Shown here: in pieces, positions 17,914-44,986 of the stretch
Layout of the letters: each line of letters begins with the position of its first letter
Position numbering within the stretch: the stretch's first letter is position 1
Source: an uncultured Clostridia bacterium
GTDB lineage: Bacteria > Bacillota > Clostridia > Christensenellales > CAG-917
Assembly (NCBI GenBank): GCA_947589395.1
Contig: CANQAA010000003.1
Coordinates: forward strand, 1 to 44,986
Direction of reading: 5' to 3'
Length of the DNA stretch: 44,986 nt
Program-made: the position numbers and the translations under genes
The notes under the pieces: generated by a model
What the model saw: only the letters and a program-made list of their open reading frames with translations
Databases searched by the model: none
Told to the model about the DNA's origin: nothing

Positions 17914-18059
17914 ACCCAAAATCAAAACCGACGAGCGCTTTTTCAAAGCATAAGACGTGCACTCTTTGAAGACCTGCTTGAGCATGATGTTCCCCATTTG
18001 AAACATAATTAACGCACACTTAATAGAGGACGCCTTTAGCCGAAGTATAGTTTGACAAA

Positions 18060-18372
18060 CCCCTCAGTCTATCGACAGCTCCCCTAACTTTACCCCACAA
18101 AAACACAAAGTATTTTTGCGGGGACCCCATAAGGGCAGCCTTGCTATGGGAATATTAAGCGTGTTCTCTGTTTAGGCAAAGTTAGTCAATTAGTTTTATT
18201 TTCAAGATTTCTCAAGCAGGAATAGCTAATTTCAAAAATCTTCTATTTTCTCATTTGGTCATCAAAGTTAGCTTCAACTCGGTTACTTGGTGGTTTTCCA
18301 AAAGCCTCCTTTCGAGGCCGCCCTTAGTAAGGGGAACTGGCTGCGCCGCTTAGGCGGTCGCAGACTGAGGGG
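18060..18372. mobile_element. MITE-like non-coding element with terminal inverted repeats
   Basis: CCCCTCAGTCT (18060-18070) and AGACTGAGGGG (18362-18372), extended outward as ACAA(A/T)CCCC; subterminal AGCTCCCCTAACT versus AGTAAGGGGAACT; no ORF inside. Confidence 0.65.
18093..18123 (-). repeat. Solitary 31-nt hairpin unit, same architecture as the 41.0-41.4 kb array
   Basis: CCCCACAAAAACACAAAGTATTTTTGCGGGG followed by ACCCC. Confidence 0.85.
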
Positions 18373-18606
18373 ATTGTAAGCGAAAACATATTACGGGTTG
18401 AAAACTTTTTTCAAACTAAAACTCAGAGCGAGTGTAAATCCAATCACACAAAATAGCAAGCGGGCGATAACAAGCAAAATGAGTGGAAATTGACCTTAAT
18501 ATCGTAAAGCGAAGCGTATATTTTGCGTGCGCGGAGTGGCGATAAAATTGCGGTGCGCTCATAACCGCTTTCGACAGGAAAGCGTTGATCGCTGAGCAAT
18601 TTTGAG

Positions 18607-19430: not shown

Positions 19431-19484
19431 CTACCTTTTTTATTATAATCGTACAATCTACCTTTTTTATTATAATCGTACAAT
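19431..19484. repeat. Perfect 27-bp direct tandem repeat (2 copies)
   Basis: CTACCTTTTTTATTATAATCGTACAAT at 19431-19457 and 19458-19484. Confidence 0.97.
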
Positions 19485-29707: not shown

Positions 29708-32700
29708 TCACCTGTATTTCTTTTTGTCGAGGCGCCCGAGTTTGGACTTTCTCGCGATGAAGGCGACGAGCACTCCGAGCACAAACACGATGATCAAGCT
29801 GCCCGCGCCGATGATCAGATAGTTCAACCAGTTCGGGAGCGTGGGCTGTTCGACGTTGACGAACACGAGCGCGCCGAGATAATCCGTCTCATACACGATG
29901 CGTCCTTCCTCAAGATCGTACTCCAACTTTTCAAGGCCGCCTTCTGAGGTCTGCTTGTAGACCACAGTGCCGCTCATATCCTCTTTCACGCTCGAAGGCA
30001 ACGCCACGCTGAGTTTGAGCTTGACGCCCGTCGTGTTGACGATCTTTGCGTCGTAGTAGAGCGCGATCTGCAAGATGGAACTGACTCTGGCGTACTCATG
30101 GATCTTTGGCATATACGCCGCGATCGCGTTGTACACCGCACTGTCGTTCGCCGTGCCCTCTTGGGTGACGCTGTGCACGATGATCCTGTTGGCGATGAGC
30201 CTGGAGTCGTCCATGACCTCGACAGTCGCTCCGACCGCCACGTCGCCGTTTTTGTCCACGTTGTCATCGCCTGAGATGTCCAGCTTCTTTGCGAACAGCT
30301 CGAGCACGCCGGACTCGCCCGTCAACCTGTAGTTGCCCTGAATGTCGTCGGGCAAGGTCACTCTGAAGGTGTATCTGCCGGGCGCGTTGACGACCGTGCC
30401 GTCCTCCTGTTCGCGCATGAACTTCACGCTGAAGTCCGTCTTTTGGAGCTTGCCGTAGTTTTTGATGTTCAAATCGGGCTGATTGAAGGTGAAGTCGACG
30501 GTATATTCCTTGTCTTCGTAATATGTGCCGACAAACCTCTTGACAGCGCCTGAGTTCGCGTCCTCTTCGAGCTCCGAGCCGCCCGTGATGGAAATTTCGA
30601 CCACCGACGGCAACACGCTGTAGTCCGCGCTGACATAATACGCTCTGCCTTCGCTCTCGGTGATGAAGTTGCGCGCGAGCATATTTTCGCCGCCCTCGAT
30701 ATAGGAGAACTTGTCGCTGTTGATTGAAATCTCGACCCTGTACGTTCCCACATTCGCTTCCTTGAAGGCTTGCTCCGTGAGACGGCTCTCGCCTTGATAG
30801 AAGTTGACGTCGAACATCTCCGCCGTGATATTTGCGGCAAGAGGAATGTCGCTTCTCCAGGACACGAGGTCTGCCACGTCATACGCCTGTTCGAGCCCGT
30901 ACGAGCTGCTGACGGGAAGCGCCGAAAGCCGGATGTCCGCCTTTTCGACGATGAATGTGACGATCGCGTTGCCGTACCACACGACCTCTTTGCCCTCGTC
31001 GCCGTCGTCTATTTTGATCTTTCTTGTGAGCTTGACGGTGCCCGCGTTGCTGCCAACGTTGACGGTGTCAAACGCGACGTCCTCTTCACTCACGAGCCCG
31101 ATTTGATCGCCCTCGATATAGCCCATGATCGCGCTCGCAAGCTGATCTTGACCGTTATATGTGAATGTATACTCCGTGTTTGGCACGGACACGCCGAGCG
31201 TGCTCGGATCGGGCAAGGTCAGATTGAGCGTCGCTGTGGGGACCGTCTCATAATCCACGTTGTTGCCGAAATACGCTTCGCACTTATACTTGAGATAATA
31301 TTTTCCGTCTTCAAACTCAATGCCGCTGTCAAAGAAGGTGAACTCGTCGCCGAAGATGGTCGAGTCGCCCTCATATTCGTTTTCGCCGATGTGGAAGTAA
31401 TAGTTGATTATCTTATCCCTGTAGGCGTCAAGTCCGCCCGCGACGGAAGGCAGCCTCAACCTTGCAACGTACGCGCAATTTTCATCGAGTTCGGACGTGA
31501 GCTTGGGATATGCGCCGACGGATGTTATCTCGCCGCTCGCGCTGTTGAAGATCACCCACTCCACAACGGGGCTGTAGTCCACGCCGTCGATGATGAACAC
31601 GTTTGAGATGTTGTCCCACGAGGCGAGCGGCGTCAAGTTGCCGTTGCGGTCGTAGAACACGATGTTGTATGCGGGTCTCCAAGTTGCGCCGTAGCTCGCT
31701 TGATACTCCGTCTTTGAGACGACGTCGATCGAAACGTACAAGTGTCTCCTCTCGACGGTGAGCGAGCCCTCGTTGACGTAGGCGAACGTGAAGAATTGAC
31801 TCTCGCCGCCGTTGAGCACAAAATGTTCGTTGTCAACGACAGTGCCCGCGTTTGGCCTTGCCGTATCAAACGTTGCGGTCGCGTACGGCAGGCTCATTAT
31901 CGCGCCCTCGAGACGGATATATTCTCCGCTTTCGCTGTCCACTCTCTCGCCGCTTTCTCCGAAATTAAATCTGAATGCGTTGAGGCGCTCGTAGGAACTC
32001 TCCTTGCCGGTAAATTTATCGTCCGTCTTATAGCCCATTGCCTCGCAGAAGTCCTCATACTTCATATAGAAGTACATCTCGCCGCCGTTGCTGAACAGCG
32101 TGACTTCTTTGTCGCCGAGCTTATACGCTATCGTATAGTTGCTCTCGGCGATCCTGTTGTTGTCATAAAGCAACGTGCCGTACTCTATGCTGCCGTCCTG
32201 CAAGATCGCGCTGAGGTGCAGTTTTGAGATCGATCCTTGATAGGAAGCGCTCAGCCTCGAGCCCGCTTCGATGACCTTGTAGTTTGCGGACTCGTCCTCG
32301 CCTGTCTCCTGATTGCCGAAGATCTCATCGATGTTGAACGTGACAGCCGAAGCGTCCGTACCCGCGCTGTTGAAGCTTGCGACGATCGACTTGATCTTGA
32401 CCTTGCCAAAGTCGCACTCGACCAATCCCTTGATCGCGTCGTCACTGAAGAAGTAGTCCTTATATCTTTCGCCAAAGAACAGATCCGTGCCGTCGTAGAC
32501 CTTGTGGAAGGGCGCGGGATTGATGATGTGAAGTTTGTTTGCGTCAAGATAAACTTCCTTTTGCTCTATCTTGCCGCTCTCAAACGCGAGATACGTCACC
32601 GTGCTTGAAAGCGTCCCTTCGCCTCCGTCGCCAAGATACACAGTGCCGCCGCCGTAGCTGTACGCGCTGATTATCTTGTTCGCGTTGTCTTTATTATATT

Positions 32701-35700
32701 CACTATAGTAGTTGCCGACGATGGGAAGCGGATAATAGTAGACTATGCTCTGCCCGCTCGCCAAGCCCATTTCGGGAGCAGTGCCGGAAACAGTTCCTTG
32801 CGGATTGACATAGCTGCCATTCTGAACAGCCTCCTCTTCCTCTTTGGTCGGGAATCTATAGTACGCTCTGAGGAGCACCTCGCCGCTTGCAGAGACGATC
32901 TCGAACATGTCGGGAGCGACTTCCCTCTTTTCGCTTATCACGACGAGCTCATAGTCCATATCGCCCGTGCGGTTGTTGCGAAGCGTCGGGTCGATGACCG
33001 CGCCGCGTTTTGCGATTATGTTGCCTTCCGCGTCAAATTGCACGTTCTTGTCCGTGAAGTACGCGCCGCCTCTTGCCCACAGCGAATATTTCGCCTGATC
33101 TCCCGCGATGAAGTGAGCGGAGTTGAACTCATAGCTCACCGCCGACGGGTCGATGTTGGGCGTGCTGTCGTAGACCTTGTCCTGCACGACGACTGTTGCG
33201 CTGACGGGGCGTTGCTTGATCGTGCCCGTCTTTTCGCGGCTGTAGGTCAACGGCTCGTAGTTTTTGAGCATGATCTCGCCTGCCGCCGCGTCCTCGCCCG
33301 TGTAGTTGAGTTTGGGCATTTCGGTGAAGCGGATGGGGATGTTCGTGCCTGCGTTTGCGTACACGAAGTTTGCCGCCGCCATGATGGACAGATACGGTCT
33401 ATCCTTGTCCGCGACGAAGAACCTGTTCTCCTCGTCGAGGTCGTTTTCGGGGATGATGACCGTTATATCCACGCTCGTCGTGCCGTCGTAGACCTTGTCC
33501 GGGATGATGATGGACTCCTCGAGCACCTGGAAGGCGCGCCTTGTCAAGGTCATGACGCCCTCGAGCTCGAAGTCCGCGATCGGCTCTTCTCCAAACGTTT
33601 CGTTTTCTATCTCTTGATACTCGCCGTCCGCAAATCTCACGCCGTCGAGGGTGTAGTTTTTGAGATAACCGTTTTCATCTTTTATGCTCATGCCCTTGAA
33701 GATGACGTTGTGCTCCGCAACCGCCTCGCCGTCAAACATGACGTTGGGGTTTATCTCGCCCTTGTCGGAGAGGAAGATTCCGCCGTCGTCTGCAAAGGAA
33801 ACGACGAGTTTTTTAAGCTCCGCCCTCAACTCGGTGAAATCGTTTTCCGAGTCGTCTATCAGTCCGTGCTCGTGGCCCGCGAGCGTGAGGGTGAAAGACT
33901 TGCGGTCTGCAACTTTGACGTCGTACAAGACGTTGCCCTGCTCGTCCTTTTGGATCGCGCCGTCAACGCGCTTGGGAGTGAAGTAATAGATCGGCTCGCC
34001 GTTTTCGTCAAGAAGCGTGACGTACGTTAGACCGTCGTACATCCTGTTCTCAAAGCGTCCCAATATGCGGAGTTTTGCCTTTGAGATGACGACGTCGAAG
34101 AAGAGGCTGTCATCGCCCTCGTTCTTTATGTCGCTTCCGTCTTTTTGGACATACGCCGAGAACACTCTGCAGATGGAGTCCATGTCGAACTCAAAGTCGC
34201 TCGCGTTTGCGCCGACGGCCTCGACCTTGTCGATGACGACCATCCATGTGCCCGCGTCTTGGGTGTGCTCGCCCTTCTCGTCGACGGGGTGACCCGTGAC
34301 CCTGATCCTTCTTGCCGCGTTCGCGAAGTCGGGAAGTTTGGCGTTGAAGGTCGGCACGACGTTGATGCCGTCTTTGGCGTTGTACTCGCGATCTTCCGCG
34401 TCCATCTTGTCAAAGTAGCTCGCGTCGACCATGAGCGGCGTTATCTGCGCGGACATATTTGTGAAGATGACGTTGATGTACTCGCCCTTGTCGTCCGTTG
34501 TGCCCGTCCTGTAGGCTATGCCGCTGTCAGGGATGAGTCTTGAGCCAAAGTGCGTCGCGTTTTCGACGTAGAAGCGGAGGGTGAAGCCGATGTGGTAGTT
34601 GCCGAGTGCGTGCACGTCGGAGTATGCCGGGACGCCCACGTTATGCGCGACTTCCGCGCTTCCCACGAGATACACTTCGCCTATCCCGCCTTCCTTGTTG
34701 AACTCGTTGTAAAGCACGGCGTTGCTGCCGCTCTCCTCCTCGCGCAGGTAGGTGAACGTGATGTTGCCAATATACAGCAATCCGTTGTTGTCGTAAACCT
34801 TTGTTATTGTGAAGTCGCTCTGTTTCAACACGATGTTGACGCCGGTGATGACGATCGCCTCCGTGTTGTCCCCGTTTTTCATATAGAAGATGATCGCGAT
34901 GATGTCGTCGTTTTCGGCAAACTTGAGCGAAGGTTGCTTTTCGCCCGCCTCGCCGTTTTTGAGCGTTGCGTTGAACGAGACCTCGCCCGCCGCGTTGGGG
35001 TTGACGATCTCAAAGAGCTCGTAGTTCATCACTCTTGCGCCATTGAGGCGGATATTCGAGATGATGATGCCGACGTTTGTGTCCTCGTGAGCGACGCCCG
35101 CTTGGTCGTACACCGCGTCAAAGACGAGTGTGATCGCGTCGTTGTTGAGGATGTCGCCGTCATCAAAGATATACGTCACGGGGTTGGGGATGACGGCGTC
35201 GCCGTTGTACATCTTGCCCGCGCCCCTGAAGTTGTTGAGGGTGATGGTGAGCTGCTTTTGTTTGATCTGCAAGCGCGTGGTCTTGCCCTCGTCCGCCGTG
35301 ACGGAGAGGTTGGAGTCGTTCGAGCGGATGCCGTTGTTGTACAGCGCGTAATAATAGTCGTCCGAGACTACCTCGCCGCCCTCGAGCTTGAACGCGACGC
35401 CCATATCGTCAGACGCGTTGTCGAATTGGCTGCTGCCCGACCTATAGCCGTCGCCCGCCACGTTGTAAAGCGCGCGGACGTAGCTGCCCGTGATCTTGCT
35501 CTTCAGAGTCGCGTAGCCCATATCCGCGAGAGTGCTACCCTCGTTGAACTCCTCGCCGTTGACCTCGTAGATCTCAAAGTTAATGCCGTAGGCGCTTTCC
35601 TGCTCGCCGTAGGTCTTGAAGTTTTGCGAAAGTGTAGCTCTCACTTTGACCGCCGCCGGGTTGTAGGTCACGGGGACTGCCACGACGTTGACCGTGACGG

Positions 35701-38700
35701 CTTGAGTTTTCGCGTCGTTTTGGACATCGACGCCGCCCAAATACATGTGCGCGTTGACAAATCTCGCCTCGTATGCGCCGACGGTGGGATATTGCTCGCT
35801 GTAAGGCGCGTTACGGCTGTACAATTGCACTTCCCAAGTTATTCTGTCGTACTTGGGCATCTTTGACTCGTCGCCGTCCGCCCTTTCGAGGGTGAACGCG
35901 CCCGCGACGAACTTGAGCCAATCGTTGTCCCACGCCATGCCGTAGTTTTTGACGAGCGCGCCTTCGTTAAATCTGACGAGGATAGCGTCGCCCGCCGAGA
36001 AGAGGAACAAATAATATTGTTCTTGTTCTATAATATACTTTACATTCGGTGTAATATAGGTGTGACCGTCATCGTCGACGCTGTCGCCCGCCGCAAATGT
36101 GATGAGGGATCTGAGCACCGCGCTGTAGTCGTCGTAGCCGACGGGATTTTCCCATCTTATGGCTTCTCCGAGCATGATTTTGCCCTTGACCTGCTCTAAG
36201 ATCGTATTTTGCATGGCCACGCTCAAGCTCAATTCCTTATCCGAAAGCGACGGGTCCGGAATGTACTTGCTCACATCATCGACGCTCGGCTCTGCCATAT
36301 AGCCCATGACCGTTGAGCCGCCGACGACCAAGACGACCTCTCTTTGCGTGATGGTGAACTTGCCCGTCGAGCTCACGAATGTTATCGGCAAAATGGCGTT
36401 CGCGCCCGCGAAGTTTGCGGTCTCGGCATAGTCATACGACTTGACGTCCTTTGTCGCGAAGTCCTTTCTCTTGATAATGCTGTTTTCGCTGCCCTCCACC
36501 TCGAAGACGAAGTAGCCTGTATCTTCGTCAAAGTCATATCTCGTCGAAAGTTCGTGGTTGCCGGGATGCGGCGCGTAGTTTGAAAGCGAGAGGTCGAGGA
36601 TAAACAAAATGCACTCGTCGATGTTCCCCGCGTCCTTAAGGCAGCTCCAAGCGGGGCTATTTTCAAATTGCGATCTCTTCACGCCGTATTTGTAGACCTC
36701 GACGGGGTCGCCGTACACGCCTTGCGCGTTGAGGGCGTCCACTTTGAGCTCGTTTGGCGTGATGTTGAAGTTGTAGACTTTGTCAAGCGTGACGGTGTAG
36801 TTGTTGCAATTGAACGAGAGCAAAATCTGATAGCTTGTTTTGCCAACGCCGAGCTTGAGGATCTCGAGCGCGTTCTTTGCCTCTATCTGCTCCCAATCTA
36901 TGCCCGTACCCGTGAGGTCGAGGCTCAAATCGAATTTGAAACCTTCCGCCTCCGCGATCTCGGCTGTGAAGTTGTCGTCCGTGTATCTGATCAAGCCGTT
37001 CAACATATCGGGGTCGAATTTCCCGTAGACGGCCTTCGCGTTCTCTTCGTTTATGGACGCGGTCACGGCAAGAGGCGCAATGACAAAATCCCATTCGCTT
37101 ATGCCGTCAAAAGTGAACGCGCCATCGCTAAATGCGTACGACCAATCCATGACCAAGCCGCTTTCGCCCTCTTCCTCTTCCCTGAGCTTCAACTTCGCGC
37201 CCTTGAAGACGTAGCTCGTGTTTGCGGTTACTTTTTTGCCTTCCTCGTCAACTTCGCCGTTTGGGATATATGCGAGCACATAGTATGTGCCGCTGTCTTT
37301 CATATTGTCTTTGTCTATTTTCGTTAGCTTCTCGCCGTCAACTTTGAAGTACAAGAACTCGAACGCCTTCCTCAAATTTTCCGTGTTATCGGCAATGCCG
37401 GAGATCGGGTTCACTATAAATCTTGGCTCTTGCGAATTTCTGTTGTAGAACACGTTTCGTGAGCTCGCGTCCATGAGATACCAATCGATAGGGGCGGTGG
37501 TTTCGTCCACTCGATAGGTTTCGTCCACGATCAACCTGCACGCGAGGGTGAATGTGACGGCGTTGCCCAACTTGCCATAGCCGTTGTTGTCGAGGACATA
37601 GGAGAAGGAGCTTGTTCTGCTCGTATCGTCAAAGCCATCGTTGGCTCCCGAGATGAGCGAATCATACCCCTCCGCAATTTGCCACTTGCACGCCGCCGAA
37701 TAGTTGAACAAGATGACGTCGCTGTTGAGCATGAGTTTGAATGGGGCGTACATGCTGCCAAACGTCATCGTGACATTGACGGTCCCTCCCCTCTTGACAG
37801 ACGTTTTATTCGCCGTTATGCTCGCAATCCCCGCATTGTCGGCAATGTCGTTTTTCTCGATCGCCGTGCTCACATCATAATCATTCGCGTCCGCGAGGAT
37901 GACGTAGGAGCTGCACCCCGAGTACAATCCCGCCTGGTCCTTTGCAAACAGCACGACGAGCTTTATGCCCACGCTATTTATTGAGTTGAGCGCGACGGAA
38001 GCGGTCGTGTCGTTGCCTAAGTTGAGTTGTTGCTGATTATCGTTTATTGCATGTCCGAACAATTGCCATGCGTTTTTTTGCATGTCGTCAAACGAGTCTG
38101 CCGTCTGAAAGAAGGTTTTGTTATCTTTGTTGGCTGTTATGAACGTTTTGAATTCATCGAGGGTGGCGAACGTCTTCACTCTCCAGCCGACGTAGAAGTT
38201 GTTCTTGTACGCCTTGTCCTCCGCTTCGCTTGCCAAAAACGCGTCCGCGTATGCCTTGACGACGGTTGAGAACGTCACGGAGTCCGTATACCACAATTTG
38301 TCAATGGAAAAGTCCTCGCCGAACACGCTGTTTTCTTTTGTTTGCAACTTCTCCGTCTCGCCAAACGTGGGAGTGTCGGGGGCGTGCCTGTCTATGAGGA
38401 CGTAAACGCCCGTGTCCATATATTTCGAAACAGTGTGTTTGTCATTGCTTGGGTTTACAAGACTTTCAATAGGCGTCCAGCCTGTGGGAGCTTGCCAAAC
38501 GCCGGGCAAGCTGTTGCCGTTGCCGACCGTCAAGCCGCCGCTCTCCAAGCCTTTCTTGGCGACGTAAGTCGTGTTGAAGTCGACAAAATCAAATTTGTCG
38601 CTGTCCTTCACGCCCAATTTCAACTCGTACATTCTGTCTTCCGACCCGCTTTGAGTGAACTTTAGCGTTATGATTATATCATGATTTGCGGAGTCCGTGC

Positions 38701-41017
38701 ACTTGAGCTCATACGTCCCGTCCGTAGCAGGCTCAACGGAAGTTGTGCCGCTAAACACTTTTATGTCCGCGCTCCAAGTGCCGCTTTTTTCCGAGACGGT
38801 GTAGCTGCTTGTGAGGATAATGGTGAAGGAAGAGTCTCCCACCTTGAAGTACACGGTGTTGCCCATATAGTTGAGTTCCACCTTGAAGGTCATGGAGAGC
38901 TCTCCCGTCGCCCACACGCGACTTTGAACGTTCGCGTCGGACGCGTTTTGCGGCAGCGGGCCGTTTGTTGAAGACAAGATTTGCACATTCCTCCCGCTCG
39001 CGTCGTCATCATATGACATATTGTAGTCAATGCTCAAATTTTTGTAGTCCACCTTGACAAAGTAGCTCTTGACGCGCGACATGGTCGTATCCGTCGTGTT
39101 GTTGCCCGCGAGGTCGTATGTGTAGAAGTCAAAGCGATAAAATCCGTCGCCCGTGACCGGATTGCTGTCTAAATTGCCGGATTTGTCATACACAGTTCCG
39201 CTTGACGACTTTGCGCCCGCTTTGCCGTCCGTAAAGCTGTACACAAAACTCATGCTGTCAAACGAGAGCACGTCCAGCTTGCCCGTTTTGACGTATGTAT
39301 CGTAAAAATCTTTTGCCGAGATGTCCGCAAGCGCTTTTAGCGCCGCCAAATCGTTTGTCCTGCGCACCGCGTAGTACCAAACCTGTTGCGAAACGCCGCC
39401 GTTGCTGTTGTTTGCAATTGAGAGCTCGTCAAAGACAGTCGTTTGCAGCCAATTTGCGGACTCAATGTTCTTGTCCTGTTTTGCAGTGCTGTTGTTGTTC
39501 AACGTAACTTCGGTTGTCGGATCGTTGGGGTCAATGCCGTCCACATTCAATGTGAATGATATCGAAGTTTTGTCCGGACCGAATTGCGTAATAGAGATAG
39601 CAACTCCACCATTTTTGGTTTCGCTGTTGTACGGCGCATTATCCGCAAAATATAACGTTGCCTGCACTGTCGCGTAATCGGTGATTTCAATCTTTATCCT
39701 GCCAACTTCTTTGTTGTTGGCTCTTAGTGGCAGCACTTTATTTTTTCCTGTGGATAAACTGCTTGCCACATAAATCGTGGCGTCGCTTCCGTCGCCGATT
39801 TTTATCACCCTCAAGCAGTTTTGTTTGTTTGACCCGCTATTCAATGTCAAAGCGGCTTGTTTATACCAATTATAATCTTCTCCATTGAGGTTCACGGTTT
39901 GTTTATCTTTGTTACCAACATAAGAAATCATGTTGATGACTGTCGAATCGGATATTGAAGGTAAATTGTCTTTTTTTTCATTAATAGCGGCGATGATTTC
40001 ATCGTTTGGCGCATAAAAAGAATAATTGTCTTTGTTGCTTTCGGTTACGTCCTCTGTCCTTGTGTTTGGAGTATAAACGCCCGTTGCCTTTGGATCGTTA
40101 GTGTTGCTTGTATTGTTCAAGGTCACGGTATACTTTATTGTCAATTCGGACAGATAGATCCACACGTCATCACCGGACGCTATAAACGACGGTTTACTGT
40201 GTGATACCTTTCCTCCCGCCAAAATGTATCCGGCGCCATTATAGTCATTAATTGTATAGGTATAGCTCACATTATCCGATTCTCCGGCACTGTTATTGTT
40301 TTTAATATCTTTTAAATTTTTCGTGCTAAGATTTTCAAATTCCTTTCCTTCATGGCTTGCCGACGATGAGGTTGAAAAACATGCATACACATGCTTTGAA
40401 GCCCCACTCCATCTTATATTGCCAAATGTAACTTCGATTTTAATCGTAAAAAGATTGTTTTTATCTTCTTTTGCAAGTTGATTGAGTTGCGTCGGCACTT
40501 GATACAATATTCCTATTGCAAAGTGCAATTCACTCGTGAATGGTTCTTTATTTCCGATTTCCCACATGTTATATTGTGTATTTTTATCGGTAGAAGATCG
40601 CACATAGGTATTGTTACAATTGCTTTTGTAAGCGCCTTGATTGTCCAAAGTAACTTTATGATTGTTGAATGTTTCCGTAAACGTCCAGGATGTCGATGTG
40701 GATTGTTCAAGACCGACGCCGCTATCATCTTTCAATGTGTTCAGATCAAAATCCCCATTGTCGCCTTGAATTGGGCTCATGGTCAAAAAACTGCCGGCAG
40801 TGCCCGATTGCCAGCCCGGAAGACTACCATTTGGAACCTCATCGCCGGGCGTATGTGTTGCCTCCGCGACATTGCCGACCGAAGCGTCGGGAGCGTCAAA
40901 AACCCCCTCGCCAAACGCAAGCGACAGCGTGAACACCGCAACAAAGCATACCGCGATAAGCGCAAGCCTCAATGCATTGAAAAGTCTGTTCCTCTTTTCA
41001 CCAACGATCCTCATCAT
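29708..41017 (-). CDS. Giant (3769 aa) secreted surface protein with many MBG/YDG-type repeats and a C-terminal TM anchor
   Basis: N-terminal signal (LFNALRLALIAVCFVAVFTLSLAFGEG); repeated VYDG/VYG/MYNG modules (DKVYDGTTSVDI, DKVYDSTPNIDPS, NRMYDGLTYVTL, HKVYDGTDLFF, AVYGKFDPD); C-term LPNWLNYLIIGAGSLIIVFVLGVLVAFIARKSKLGRLDKKKYR. Confidence 0.9.
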   Translation of the reverse strand: MMRIVGEKRNRLFNALRLALIAVCFVAVFTLSLAFGEGVFDAPDASVGNVAEATHTPGDEVPNGSLPGWQSGTAGSFLTMSPIQGDNGDFDLNTLKDDSGVGLEQSTSTSWTFTETFNNHKVTLDNQGAYKSNCNNTYVRSSTDKNTQYNMWEIGNKEPFTSELHFAIGILYQVPTQLNQLAKEDKNNLFTIKIEVTFGNIRWSGASKHVYACFSTSSSASHEGKEFENLSTKNLKDIKNNNSAGESDNVSYTYTINDYNGAGYILAGGKVSHSKPSFIASGDDVWIYLSELTIKYTVTLNNTSNTNDPKATGVYTPNTRTEDVTESNKDNYSFYAPNDEIIAAINEKKDNLPSISDSTVINMISYVGNKDKQTVNLNGEDYNWYKQAALTLNSGSNKQNCLRVIKIGDGSDATIYVASSLSTGKNKVLPLRANNKEVGRIKIEITDYATVQATLYFADNAPYNSETKNGGVAISITQFGPDKTSISFTLNVDGIDPNDPTTEVTLNNNSTAKQDKNIESANWLQTTVFDELSIANNSNGGVSQQVWYYAVRRTNDLAALKALADISAKDFYDTYVKTGKLDVLSFDSMSFVYSFTDGKAGAKSSSGTVYDKSGNLDSNPVTGDGFYRFDFYTYDLAGNNTTDTTMSRVKSYFVKVDYKNLSIDYNMSYDDDASGRNVQILSSTNGPLPQNASDANVQSRVWATGELSMTFKVELNYMGNTVYFKVGDSSFTIILTSSYTVSEKSGTWSADIKVFSGTTSVEPATDGTYELKCTDSANHDIIITLKFTQSGSEDRMYELKLGVKDSDKFDFVDFNTTYVAKKGLESGGLTVGNGNSLPGVWQAPTGWTPIESLVNPSNDKHTVSKYMDTGVYVLIDRHAPDTPTFGETEKLQTKENSVFGEDFSIDKLWYTDSVTFSTVVKAYADAFLASEAEDKAYKNNFYVGWRVKTFATLDEFKTFITANKDNKTFFQTADSFDDMQKNAWQLFGHAINDNQQQLNLGNDTTASVALNSINSVGIKLVVLFAKDQAGLYSGCSSYVILADANDYDVSTAIEKNDIADNAGIASITANKTSVKRGGTVNVTMTFGSMYAPFKLMLNSDVILFNYSAACKWQIAEGYDSLISGANDGFDDTSRTSSFSYVLDNNGYGKLGNAVTFTLACRLIVDETYRVDETTAPIDWYLMDASSRNVFYNRNSQEPRFIVNPISGIADNTENLRKAFEFLYFKVDGEKLTKIDKDNMKDSGTYYVLAYIPNGEVDEEGKKVTANTSYVFKGAKLKLREEEEGESGLVMDWSYAFSDGAFTFDGISEWDFVIAPLAVTASINEENAKAVYGKFDPDMLNGLIRYTDDNFTAEIAEAEGFKFDLSLDLTGTGIDWEQIEAKNALEILKLGVGKTSYQILLSFNCNNYTVTLDKVYNFNITPNELKVDALNAQGVYGDPVEVYKYGVKRSQFENSPAWSCLKDAGNIDECILFILDLSLSNYAPHPGNHELSTRYDFDEDTGYFVFEVEGSENSIIKRKDFATKDVKSYDYAETANFAGANAILPITFVSSTGKFTITQREVVLVVGGSTVMGYMAEPSVDDVSKYIPDPSLSDKELSLSVAMQNTILEQVKGKIMLGEAIRWENPVGYDDYSAVLRSLITFAAGDSVDDDGHTYITPNVKYIIEQEQYYLFLFSAGDAILVRFNEGALVKNYGMAWDNDWLKFVAGAFTLERADGDESKMPKYDRITWEVQLYSRNAPYSEQYPTVGAYEARFVNAHMYLGGVDVQNDAKTQAVTVNVVAVPVTYNPAAVKVRATLSQNFKTYGEQESAYGINFEIYEVNGEEFNEGSTLADMGYATLKSKITGSYVRALYNVAGDGYRSGSSQFDNASDDMGVAFKLEGGEVVSDDYYYALYNNGIRSNDSNLSVTADEGKTTRLQIKQKQLTITLNNFRGAGKMYNGDAVIPNPVTYIFDDGDILNNDAITLVFDAVYDQAGVAHEDTNVGIIISNIRLNGARVMNYELFEIVNPNAAGEVSFNATLKNGEAGEKQPSLKFAENDDIIAIIFYMKNGDNTEAIVITGVNIVLKQSDFTITKVYDNNGLLYIGNITFTYLREEESGSNAVLYNEFNKEGGIGEVYLVGSAEVAHNVGVPAYSDVHALGNYHIGFTLRFYVENATHFGSRLIPDSGIAYRTGTTDDKGEYINVIFTNMSAQITPLMVDASYFDKMDAEDREYNAKDGINVVPTFNAKLPDFANAARRIRVTGHPVDEKGEHTQDAGTWMVVIDKVEAVGANASDFEFDMDSICRVFSAYVQKDGSDIKNEGDDSLFFDVVISKAKLRILGRFENRMYDGLTYVTLLDENGEPIYYFTPKRVDGAIQKDEQGNVLYDVKVADRKSFTLTLAGHEHGLIDDSENDFTELRAELKKLVVSFADDGGIFLSDKGEINPNVMFDGEAVAEHNVIFKGMSIKDENGYLKNYTLDGVRFADGEYQEIENETFGEEPIADFELEGVMTLTRRAFQVLEESIIIPDKVYDGTTSVDITVIIPENDLDEENRFFVADKDRPYLSIMAAANFVYANAGTNIPIRFTEMPKLNYTGEDAAAGEIMLKNYEPLTYSREKTGTIKQRPVSATVVVQDKVYDSTPNIDPSAVSYEFNSAHFIAGDQAKYSLWARGGAYFTDKNVQFDAEGNIIAKRGAVIDPTLRNNRTGDMDYELVVISEKREVAPDMFEIVSASGEVLLRAYYRFPTKEEEEAVQNGSYVNPQGTVSGTAPEMGLASGQSIVYYYPLPIVGNYYSEYNKDNANKIISAYSYGGGTVYLGDGGEGTLSSTVTYLAFESGKIEQKEVYLDANKLHIINPAPFHKVYDGTDLFFGERYKDYFFSDDAIKGLVECDFGKVKIKSIVASFNSAGTDASAVTFNIDEIFGNQETGEDESANYKVIEAGSRLSASYQGSISKLHLSAILQDGSIEYGTLLYDNNRIAESNYTIAYKLGDKEVTLFSNGGEMYFYMKYEDFCEAMGYKTDDKFTGKESSYERLNAFRFNFGESGERVDSESGEYIRLEGAIMSLPYATATFDTARPNAGTVVDNEHFVLNGGESQFFTFAYVNEGSLTVERRHLYVSIDVVSKTEYQASYGATWRPAYNIVFYDRNGNLTPLASWDNISNVFIIDGVDYSPVVEWVIFNSASGEITSVGAYPKLTSELDENCAYVARLRLPSVAGGLDAYRDKIINYYFHIGENEYEGDSTIFGDEFTFFDSGIEFEDGKYYLKYKCEAYFGNNVDYETVPTATLNLTLPDPSTLGVSVPNTEYTFTYNGQDQLASAIMGYIEGDQIGLVSEEDVAFDTVNVGSNAGTVKLTRKIKIDDGDEGKEVVWYGNAIVTFIVEKADIRLSALPVSSSYGLEQAYDVADLVSWRSDIPLAANITAEMFDVNFYQGESRLTEQAFKEANVGTYRVEISINSDKFSYIEGGENMLARNFITESEGRAYYVSADYSVLPSVVEISITGGSELEEDANSGAVKRFVGTYYEDKEYTVDFTFNQPDLNIKNYGKLQKTDFSVKFMREQEDGTVVNAPGRYTFRVTLPDDIQGNYRLTGESGVLELFAKKLDISGDDNVDKNGDVAVGATVEVMDDSRLIANRIIVHSVTQEGTANDSAVYNAIAAYMPKIHEYARVSSILQIALYYDAKIVNTTGVKLKLSVALPSSVKEDMSGTVVYKQTSEGGLEKLEYDLEEGRIVYETDYLGALVFVNVEQPTLPNWLNYLIIGAGSLIIVFVLGVLVAFIARKSKLGRLDKKKYR

Positions 41018-41034: not shown

Positions 41035-41384
41035 CCCCACAAAACCACTTCGTAATTTTGCGGGGACCCCGATTTTATTGCCCCACAAAAACATTGCATA
41101 TTTTTGCGGGGACCCCGAATTTTTGCCCCATAAAAACAGACAAGCTGTTTTTGCGGGGACCCCGATTTTTGCCCCACAAAACCACTTCGTAATTTTGCGG
41201 GGACCCCGATTTATTACCCCATAAAAACAGACAAGCTGTTTTGATGGGGACCCCGATTTTTGCCCCAACAAATCGACAAAGCAATTTGTTGGGGACCCCG
41301 ATTTATTACCCCACAAAAACATTGCATATTTTTGCGGGGACCCCGATTTTTTCCCAAAAAAATTATCGCATAATTTTTTTGGGG
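41035..41384 (-). repeat. Tandem array of eight 31-34 nt hairpins, 44-46 nt period, upstream of the giant gene
   Basis: Units at 41035-41065, 41081-41111, 41126-41158, 41172-41202, 41217-41249, 41263-41294, 41309-41339, 41353-41383; linkers ACCCCGAT... ; possible ninth degenerate unit 41411-41439. Confidence 0.93.
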
Positions 41385-41577
41385 AAAATCTCAATCTTTT
41401 TGTTTTTGTTCCCACAAAACATTTTATGCTTTTGCAAGGAAAGTTTTTTTGTTCTTCCCTTTTCGGGAAATTTGATCTATTTTTCAAACTCTTCAAACTT
41501 TAGTAAATCATCTTGGGTCTTATGCGCGCTTGCGTGAGAATTCATGCCTTGCACCGCGCAACAATTTGTCTCCCTCT

Positions 41578-41735
41578 CTCACGCGCTTTGTGACTCGTCT
41601 CTCTCGTTGTTCGCACGCGCTGTGACTCGTTCTCGTATTCGCACGCGCATGCTTTTATAACTCGTTTTTCACGCGCCTTTGTAGCTCGTCCTTCTCGTTT
41701 CTTTCAAGCGTTTTGCAACTCGTTCCCGCACGCGC
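41578..41735. repeat. Degenerate tandem repeat (about 28-35 nt period) with CACGCGC ... ACTCGT(T) cores
   Basis: CACGCGC at 41580, 41614, 41642, 41670, 41729; ACTCGT at 41593, 41625, 41660, 41718. Confidence 0.65.
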
Positions 41736-41895
41736 TTGCGTGAGCATAGGCGCGCACATAATTATGCAATAATATATTACAACAACATATCGACCTATGT
41801 CAATACCCAATTTTTTCCGCGCGGTAATTATTAAATTTTTCCTGCGCGAAAATCGCCGCCTGCAGACGGCTGAAATCTTTCTTTGAAAAGAAAAT

Positions 41896-44485: not shown

Positions 44486-44730
44486 AAATTTTCCTCCCAA
44501 TTACAATAGCCGCCGACATTTTCCTGCCGCGCTTTAAGTTGTGATATAATTGTATAATATTTCGTCGGATATTTCAACCTAATTTTTTTATTTGCGAAAA
44601 ATAATTACTTTCCTTTGAAAATTTTCAACGGAAAAATTTGACGGTACGGGGCGGGCAATCGCGCTCAGCGCCTTGAAATGCGCGCCGTGCTTTGCTATAA
44701 TATATCAGGCAATGGAATATAGTAGGCAAT

Positions 44731-44986
44731 GGCGACATATTGCGTTACGGCGACATATTGCGACAAAATCCGACATGATGCGACAATCCATTCGCTCCTG
44801 TCGACATAGTTCGACACAATATGGCAAAATGCGGCAATCTAATCGCTTGCTTCAACATAAAACGACATAAATCGACGAACTAACTGCTCGTTTCGGTAAA
44901 ATTCGACATAAATCGACTTAATGCGACCGACCCGTTCGCGCTTGTCGACATAAATCGACATAATATGACGAAATGCAACAATCTAA
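44731..44986. repeat. Hierarchical short-period repeat: 10-nt units (CGACATAAAT-like) grouped into 51-nt (once 41-nt) super-units
   Basis: Unit starts 44751, 44761, 44771, 44781 | 44802, 44812, 44822, 44832 | 44853, 44863, 44873 | 44894, 44904, 44914, 44924 | 44945, 44955, 44965, 44975, separated by 11-nt TCGCTCCTGT-like spacers; runs off window end. Confidence 0.85.

Follow-up and report, generated by a model that had tools for sequence, protein, structure and literature searches.

The REP-like hairpins known so far fall mainly into GTAG- and CGTC-tagged families. Their layout is a tag plus an imperfect hairpin (PMC3733652, PMC8266576, PMC6006769). The GTAG REPs, with BIMEs, REPINs and RAYT, are short imperfect palindromes that carry an unpaired conserved tag (GTAG or GTGG, 0-2 nt 5' of the hairpin foot). 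Copy number is high, structure is strand-specific and stem sequence is variable; RAYT/TnpA-REP is flanked by the repeats, and neighbouring units of BIMEs and REPINs are inverted. Tandem REP arrays are known in one Pseudomonas genome, where the units are inverted pairs at longer spacing (PMC3116915). The CGTC REPs, including Neisseria dRS3 and rickettsial RPE, have stems of 8-9 bp and form mainly head-to-head dimers, with head-to-tail arrangements negligible (PMC3733652).

The window (the whole stretch analysed, 44,986 nt from an uncultured Clostridia bacterium) contains an array of hairpins tagged CGGGGT. Like the GTAG REPs, each is a short, variable palindrome with an unpaired 5' tag, present in many dispersed copies and with a strand-specific fold of the single-stranded DNA type. 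Unlike them, it has a different consensus tag, head-to-tail neighbours, a conserved GGGG-TA 3' foot, a G.T pair after the CCCC/GGGG clamp, and a range of many phyla. With the CGTC REPs it shares a tagged palindrome without a dedicated transposase, but it has neither their tag (CGTC, TGTC or CCTC) nor their stem length. The terminal inverted repeats of TIRYTs (Y1 subclass 2.1) likewise start with GGGG[AT][CG]; those repeats, however, are termini around a Y1 gene, whereas the present elements are lone hairpins in which CCCC directly follows GGGGT. Very small dispersed repeats and MITEs are also non-autonomous, dispersed and nested in other repeats, but the hairpin does not consist of an interior bounded by terminal inverted repeats, and the target-site duplication of classical DDE-type elements was not seen at two clean pairs of filled and empty sites. 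By anatomy, then, the element would be called REP-like, a likeness that does not establish membership in a described REP family.

Rfam returned only matches below gathering for the window region (E-value scan) and no match for 11 loci scanned at gathering. Searches of the open-licence literature found no description of GGGGTCCCC/GGGGACCCC or of matching tagged palindromes. A preliminary description of this DNA had named no known element, and that still holds: the element is apparently undescribed so far.

The array and its units

The array takes up positions 41035-41440, with a period of 44-46 nt, and comprises seven hairpins with the tag, one without it and a last unit that has decayed (Table 1; TRF scores 282-420). 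Start-to-start distances are 46, 45, 46, 45, 46, 46, 44 and 58. These mapped starts bear out the positions, near-constant period and wider last gap reported in the preliminary description, and its unit pairs (1 with 4, 2 with 7, and the CUUGU-loop pair 3 and 5) were recovered as well. Its CGGGGU before each CCCC applies to the seven tagged units; it is missing from unit 8, and unit 9 has degenerated.

Table 1. Hairpin units of the array, a dispersed copy and the adjoining open reading frame, in window coordinates
Feature	Position	Strand	Description
Hairpin unit 1	41035..41065	(-)	CCCCGCAAAATTAC-GAA-GTGGTTTTGTGGGG; tag CGGGGT at 41066-41071, before the hairpin on the minus strand
Hairpin unit 2	41081..41111	(-)	CCCCGCAAAAATAT-GCA-ATGTTTTTGTGGGG; tagged; core also dispersed in contigs C1 and C6
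Hairpin unit 3	41126..41158	(-)	tagged; loop CTTGT
Hairpin unit 4	41172..41202	(-)	tagged; exactly as unit 1
Hairpin unit 5	41217..41249	(-)	tagged; loop CTTGT; identical core at G000:C1:54656
Hairpin unit 6	41263..41294	(-)	CCCCAACAAATTG-CTTTGT-CGATTTGTTGGGG; tagged; one-base variants in C17 and C1
Hairpin unit 7	41309..41339	(-)	tagged; exactly as unit 2
Hairpin unit 8	41353..41384	(-)	stem nearly all A/T; without CGGGGT tag
Unit 9	41411..41440	(-)	degraded
Dispersed copy (tag and hairpin)	18091..18131	(-)	within MITE-like repeat; core also in C15, C64 and C85
3769-aa ORF	29708..41017	(-)	weak YDG domain match; neighbour, outside the element

Read on the tag strand, the element is 5'-(CA)TCGGGGT-CCCC-stem-loop-stem-GGGG-TAA(GG)-3', or in a second rendering 5'-TCGGGGT-CCCC-stem-loop-stem-GGGG-TAAA-3', and measures about 47 bp; the other strand reads T(T/A)TA-CCCC-stem/loop-GGGG-A-CCCC-G-A. 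Units form arrays of a single orientation: of 60 neighbouring pairs, 56 lie head-to-tail and 4 are inverted, and the gap between adjacent units is 11-17 nt in all pairs but one.

Other repeats occur in the window. Degenerate tandem repeats around CACGCGCTTTGTGACTCGT lie just upstream of the array (41580-41740), and short perfect or near-perfect tandem duplications are present at 19431-19484 and 44699-44732 (27 bp x2 and 17 bp x2).

A dispersed family

The same hairpins are scattered through the genome, so the array is not a natural unit. The sequence TTTTGCGGGGACCCC has 13 exact occurrences in the own genome. Searched with a covariance model of 22 own-genome units, the same genome gives 49 matches. 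The preliminary description had proposed such a search of related genomes, and it located the family widely: the model matches 17 of 19 same-genus genomes, with more than 80 copies in four (G004, 117; G005, 113; G017, 93; G003, 86). Outside the genus, matches are few in other genera of the family, plus one genome elsewhere in the order.

The cores of array units 2/7 and 5 are identical to those of dispersed copies, and unit 6 differs from one by a single base. At least three dispersed subfamilies thus make up the array as a mosaic, and the differences among its units are largely older than the array itself. The array is probably a local group, arranged head-to-tail, of copies of a mobile hairpin that is dispersed, non-autonomous and REP-like, measures about 47 bp and has a CGGGGT tag.

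Many copies are nested in other dispersed repeats. One such host is a MITE-like repeat at 18055-18375 with ends CCCCTCAGTC.../...GACTGAGGGGATTG, whose left arm holds a tagged copy; related repeats elsewhere in the genome contain other hairpin subfamilies. At locus L079 (about 1547-1616), the loop of one tagged unit is very long, about 40 nt; a normal unit lies next to it.

Folding of the tag strand

The array region folds 8.4-9.6 standard deviations below dinucleotide shuffles, for the tag strand as DNA and as RNA and for the other strand as DNA. Stems covary: among the 22 own-genome units, 95.8% of stem cells are paired (80.4 +/- 1.6 in shuffled controls), the covariation score is 0.433 (0.160 shuffled; at most 0.103 slid), and both-sided changes occur at six stem pairs. 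The covariation that had been claimed for the array is thus borne out on these 22 units, but the differences between array units largely reflect subfamilies that existed beforehand. A general caution follows: covariation inside one array can reflect mixed mobile subfamilies and not a local functional RNA.

Folding is also strand-specific. Among 152 distinct hairpins, the tag strand shows 163 G.T against 19 A.C oppositions, and the excess persists without the outer five pairs (94 versus 18); many of the G.T pairs lie just inside the CCCC/GGGG clamp. This identifies the tag strand as the conserved folding strand. Single-stranded DNA accounts for it better than a cruciform, which would be symmetric. 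The DNA cruciform array suggested earlier is therefore kept in its DNA-level character, as the better reading, while its symmetry agrees less well with the one-strand fold.

An immobile double-strand site, such as one for chromosome organisation or for binding a nucleoid protein or gyrase, would agree with many dispersed copies in either orientation. It appears highly improbable, however: stems drift yet continue to pair, G.T far exceeds A.C, pairing and not sequence is what is conserved (largely on the covariation of the 22 units), and the family is patchy in its phylum, with filled and empty sites.

Orientation and neighbouring genes

The array lies in sense orientation to the surface-protein gene, with 18 nt separating unit 1 from the start codon that follows it. 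A promoter-like site (TTGACA-18-TAATAT, 41803-41774) stands about 760 nt upstream of the ORF start, so the array may lie in the 5' UTR, and it may affect this 5' region. These features, along with an RNA folding z-score of -9.0 for the array region, speak for a structured 5' leader, noncoding RNA or attenuator array regulating the 3769-aa surface protein. The preliminary description had favoured a leader or ncRNA of this kind, and had proposed looking for similar arrays beside surface-protein genes elsewhere. Neither idea fared well. Most copies lie elsewhere, genome-wide and across phyla, beside ordinary and diverse genes; between tandem genes, the tag strand is sense in 24 cases and antisense in 28 (p=0.68); and no Rfam family matches. 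A leader function is accordingly very unlikely, and a sense-RNA role at most copies is unlikely, given the random orientation and the ordinary neighbours. For these, folding of single-stranded DNA is probably the simpler reading. With the hairpin scattered both in this genome and in unrelated phyla, REP-like mobile DNA looks likelier than a control switch for the surface gene. Nothing suggests that the array arose to serve that gene, and any effect on it would be a by-product of location.

Copies number 33 between convergent and 19 between divergent genes; the majority coding strand is not favoured (37 versus 48), and no lagging-strand bias was seen. Within 700 bp, 104 copies lie between called ORFs, and 55 fall in open frames of 90 aa or more, the frames being mechanically called. 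Two further candidates were rejected. One is a sense RNA element or terminator, in view of the random orientation and the absence of a T-tract after the stem. The other is a preference for the apex of host palindromes as insertion site: a few cases were striking, but a permutation test on 185 sites gave no support (p=0.21).

Filled and empty sites

Some sites match each other except that one has the hairpin and the other does not. In two clean pairs (L058 filled and L122 empty; L104 filled and L130 empty), the insert is identical, CCTTACCCC...GGGGACCCC(G/T)ATG, about 47 bp, and no target-site duplication was found in either. In a third pair (L071 and L155), flank identity is about 85%.

Both clean pairs fall at one and the same point of a single dispersed host repeat, and some of the copies may therefore have travelled with their host. 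Spread by replication slippage or template switching, or as cargo of larger (MITE-like) repeats, would dispense with a dedicated enzyme and would account for tandem arrays and for the many copies inside other repeats. Set against this are copies whose surroundings are unrelated, such as tRNA clusters, positions after 23S rRNA and ordinary intergenic sites, as well as the fixed tag and the identical insert ends of the two clean pairs, which suggest a defined unit. As a general explanation, enzyme-free spread is unlikely.

For a REP-like mobile hairpin, a plausible sequence of events can be proposed. The tag strand would fold once single-stranded, during replication or repair; a putative endonuclease or transposase, specific for single strands and supplied in trans, would recognise the GGGGT tag and the hairpin; and the unit would move to a new site without target duplication. 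Arrays would grow by landing in the same orientation beside older copies, or by unequal exchange.

Copies at L073 (1501-1536), L153 and L162 adjoin partial or duplicated tRNA gene halves, which suggests that insertions or rearrangements once took place at tRNA genes.

Search for a mobilising enzyme

A more specific form of the preferred explanation is a genuine REP family moved by a Y1 enzyme of the RAYT/TnpA-REP type, with GGGGT replacing GTAG as guide and the enzyme lost or encoded in missing parts of the genome. The tag-plus-hairpin layout is that of a REP. TnpA-REP/IS200 enzymes act strand-specifically on folded single-stranded DNA (PMC8266576), and TIRYT terminal repeats have the consensus GGGG[AT][CG]A[CG] (PMC6006769). 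Moreover, Y1 genes are present in 14 of 24 hairpin-bearing distant genomes.

The distribution of Y1 genes fits less well. GTAG REPs flank RAYT/TnpA-REP; here no RAYT was found. No Y1_Tnp was found in the own genome (92.7% complete), nor a Y1 transposase in the high-copy G003, G005 and G009, and most high-copy relatives lack one. The Y1 genes of other genomes are not generally flanked by the hairpin; a Stahlbacteria genome (G067) has two or three Y1 loci with a hairpin within about 1.5 kb, but it contains about 80 copies. In the same genus, a 262-aa Y1 gene (G011, locus L205, contig C4) has different GGGGACGGGGC terminal repeats of its own (GGGGACGGGGCAAAAATGTT... inverted repeats), reminiscent of TIRYT repeats. 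A Y1-driven REP family thus ranks as a tentative possibility. So, to a like degree, does a third cross-phylum superfamily: CGGGGT-tagged mobile palindromes forming directional head-to-tail arrays, spread by a putative single-strand DNA enzyme that is neither Y1 nor RAYT.

Y2_Tnp gave no match, with an uninformative control that matched nowhere either. Reverse transcriptase occurs in four of six high-copy genomes (G003, G005, G009, G017) and in none of five low-copy genomes of the genus, an association that is no more than suggestive, because genome size is also greater in the high-copy group. With the CGGGGT-tagged family there is a defined substrate with which to look for an enzyme that may move REP-like hairpins lacking a transposase of their own.

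Distribution across phyla

A specific 20-base pattern, with an estimated chance expectation of about 15 matches, was scanned over GTDB representative genomes. At least 117 loci are found among the matches listed, although a few resemble coding sequence matched by chance. The same architecture recurs in Pullulanibacillus, Paenibacillus, Carboxydothermus, Dethiosulfatarculus, WOR-3/Stahlbacteria, Dehalococcoidia and others. Several carriers are isolates, so contamination does not explain the spread across phyla.

Per-genome counts with the pattern ACCCCN{18,46}GGGGACCCCG and a reversed control, inflated in array-rich genomes by overlapping matches inside arrays, include (pattern/control): Pullulanibacillus pueri, 117/0; an uncultured goat Clostridia MAG, 112/0; WOR-3 and Stahlbacteria MAGs, 85/1 and 80/0; Dethiosulfatarculus sandiegensis, 59/4; Paenibacillus mesophilus, 40/0; and the own genome, 39/0. 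The family is patchy in its own phylum: about 4 of 200 evenly drawn genomes, the own genome included, have convincing stem-forming hairpins. A phage source was also considered and rejected, there being one viral-contig match in all.

The wide spread could partly represent convergence of short GC-clamped hairpins; yet tag, linker and A-rich stem recur together. One fixed tag and one fixed array geometry extend across gut Clostridia, Bacillales, Desulfobacterota, WOR-3, Chloroflexota and others.

Finally, an apparently multi-armed version of the hairpin, 58-60 nt long, directly follows the 23S rRNA 3' end at six loci (L099, L105, L127, L132, L136 and L146), in six species of Paenibacillus and relatives.
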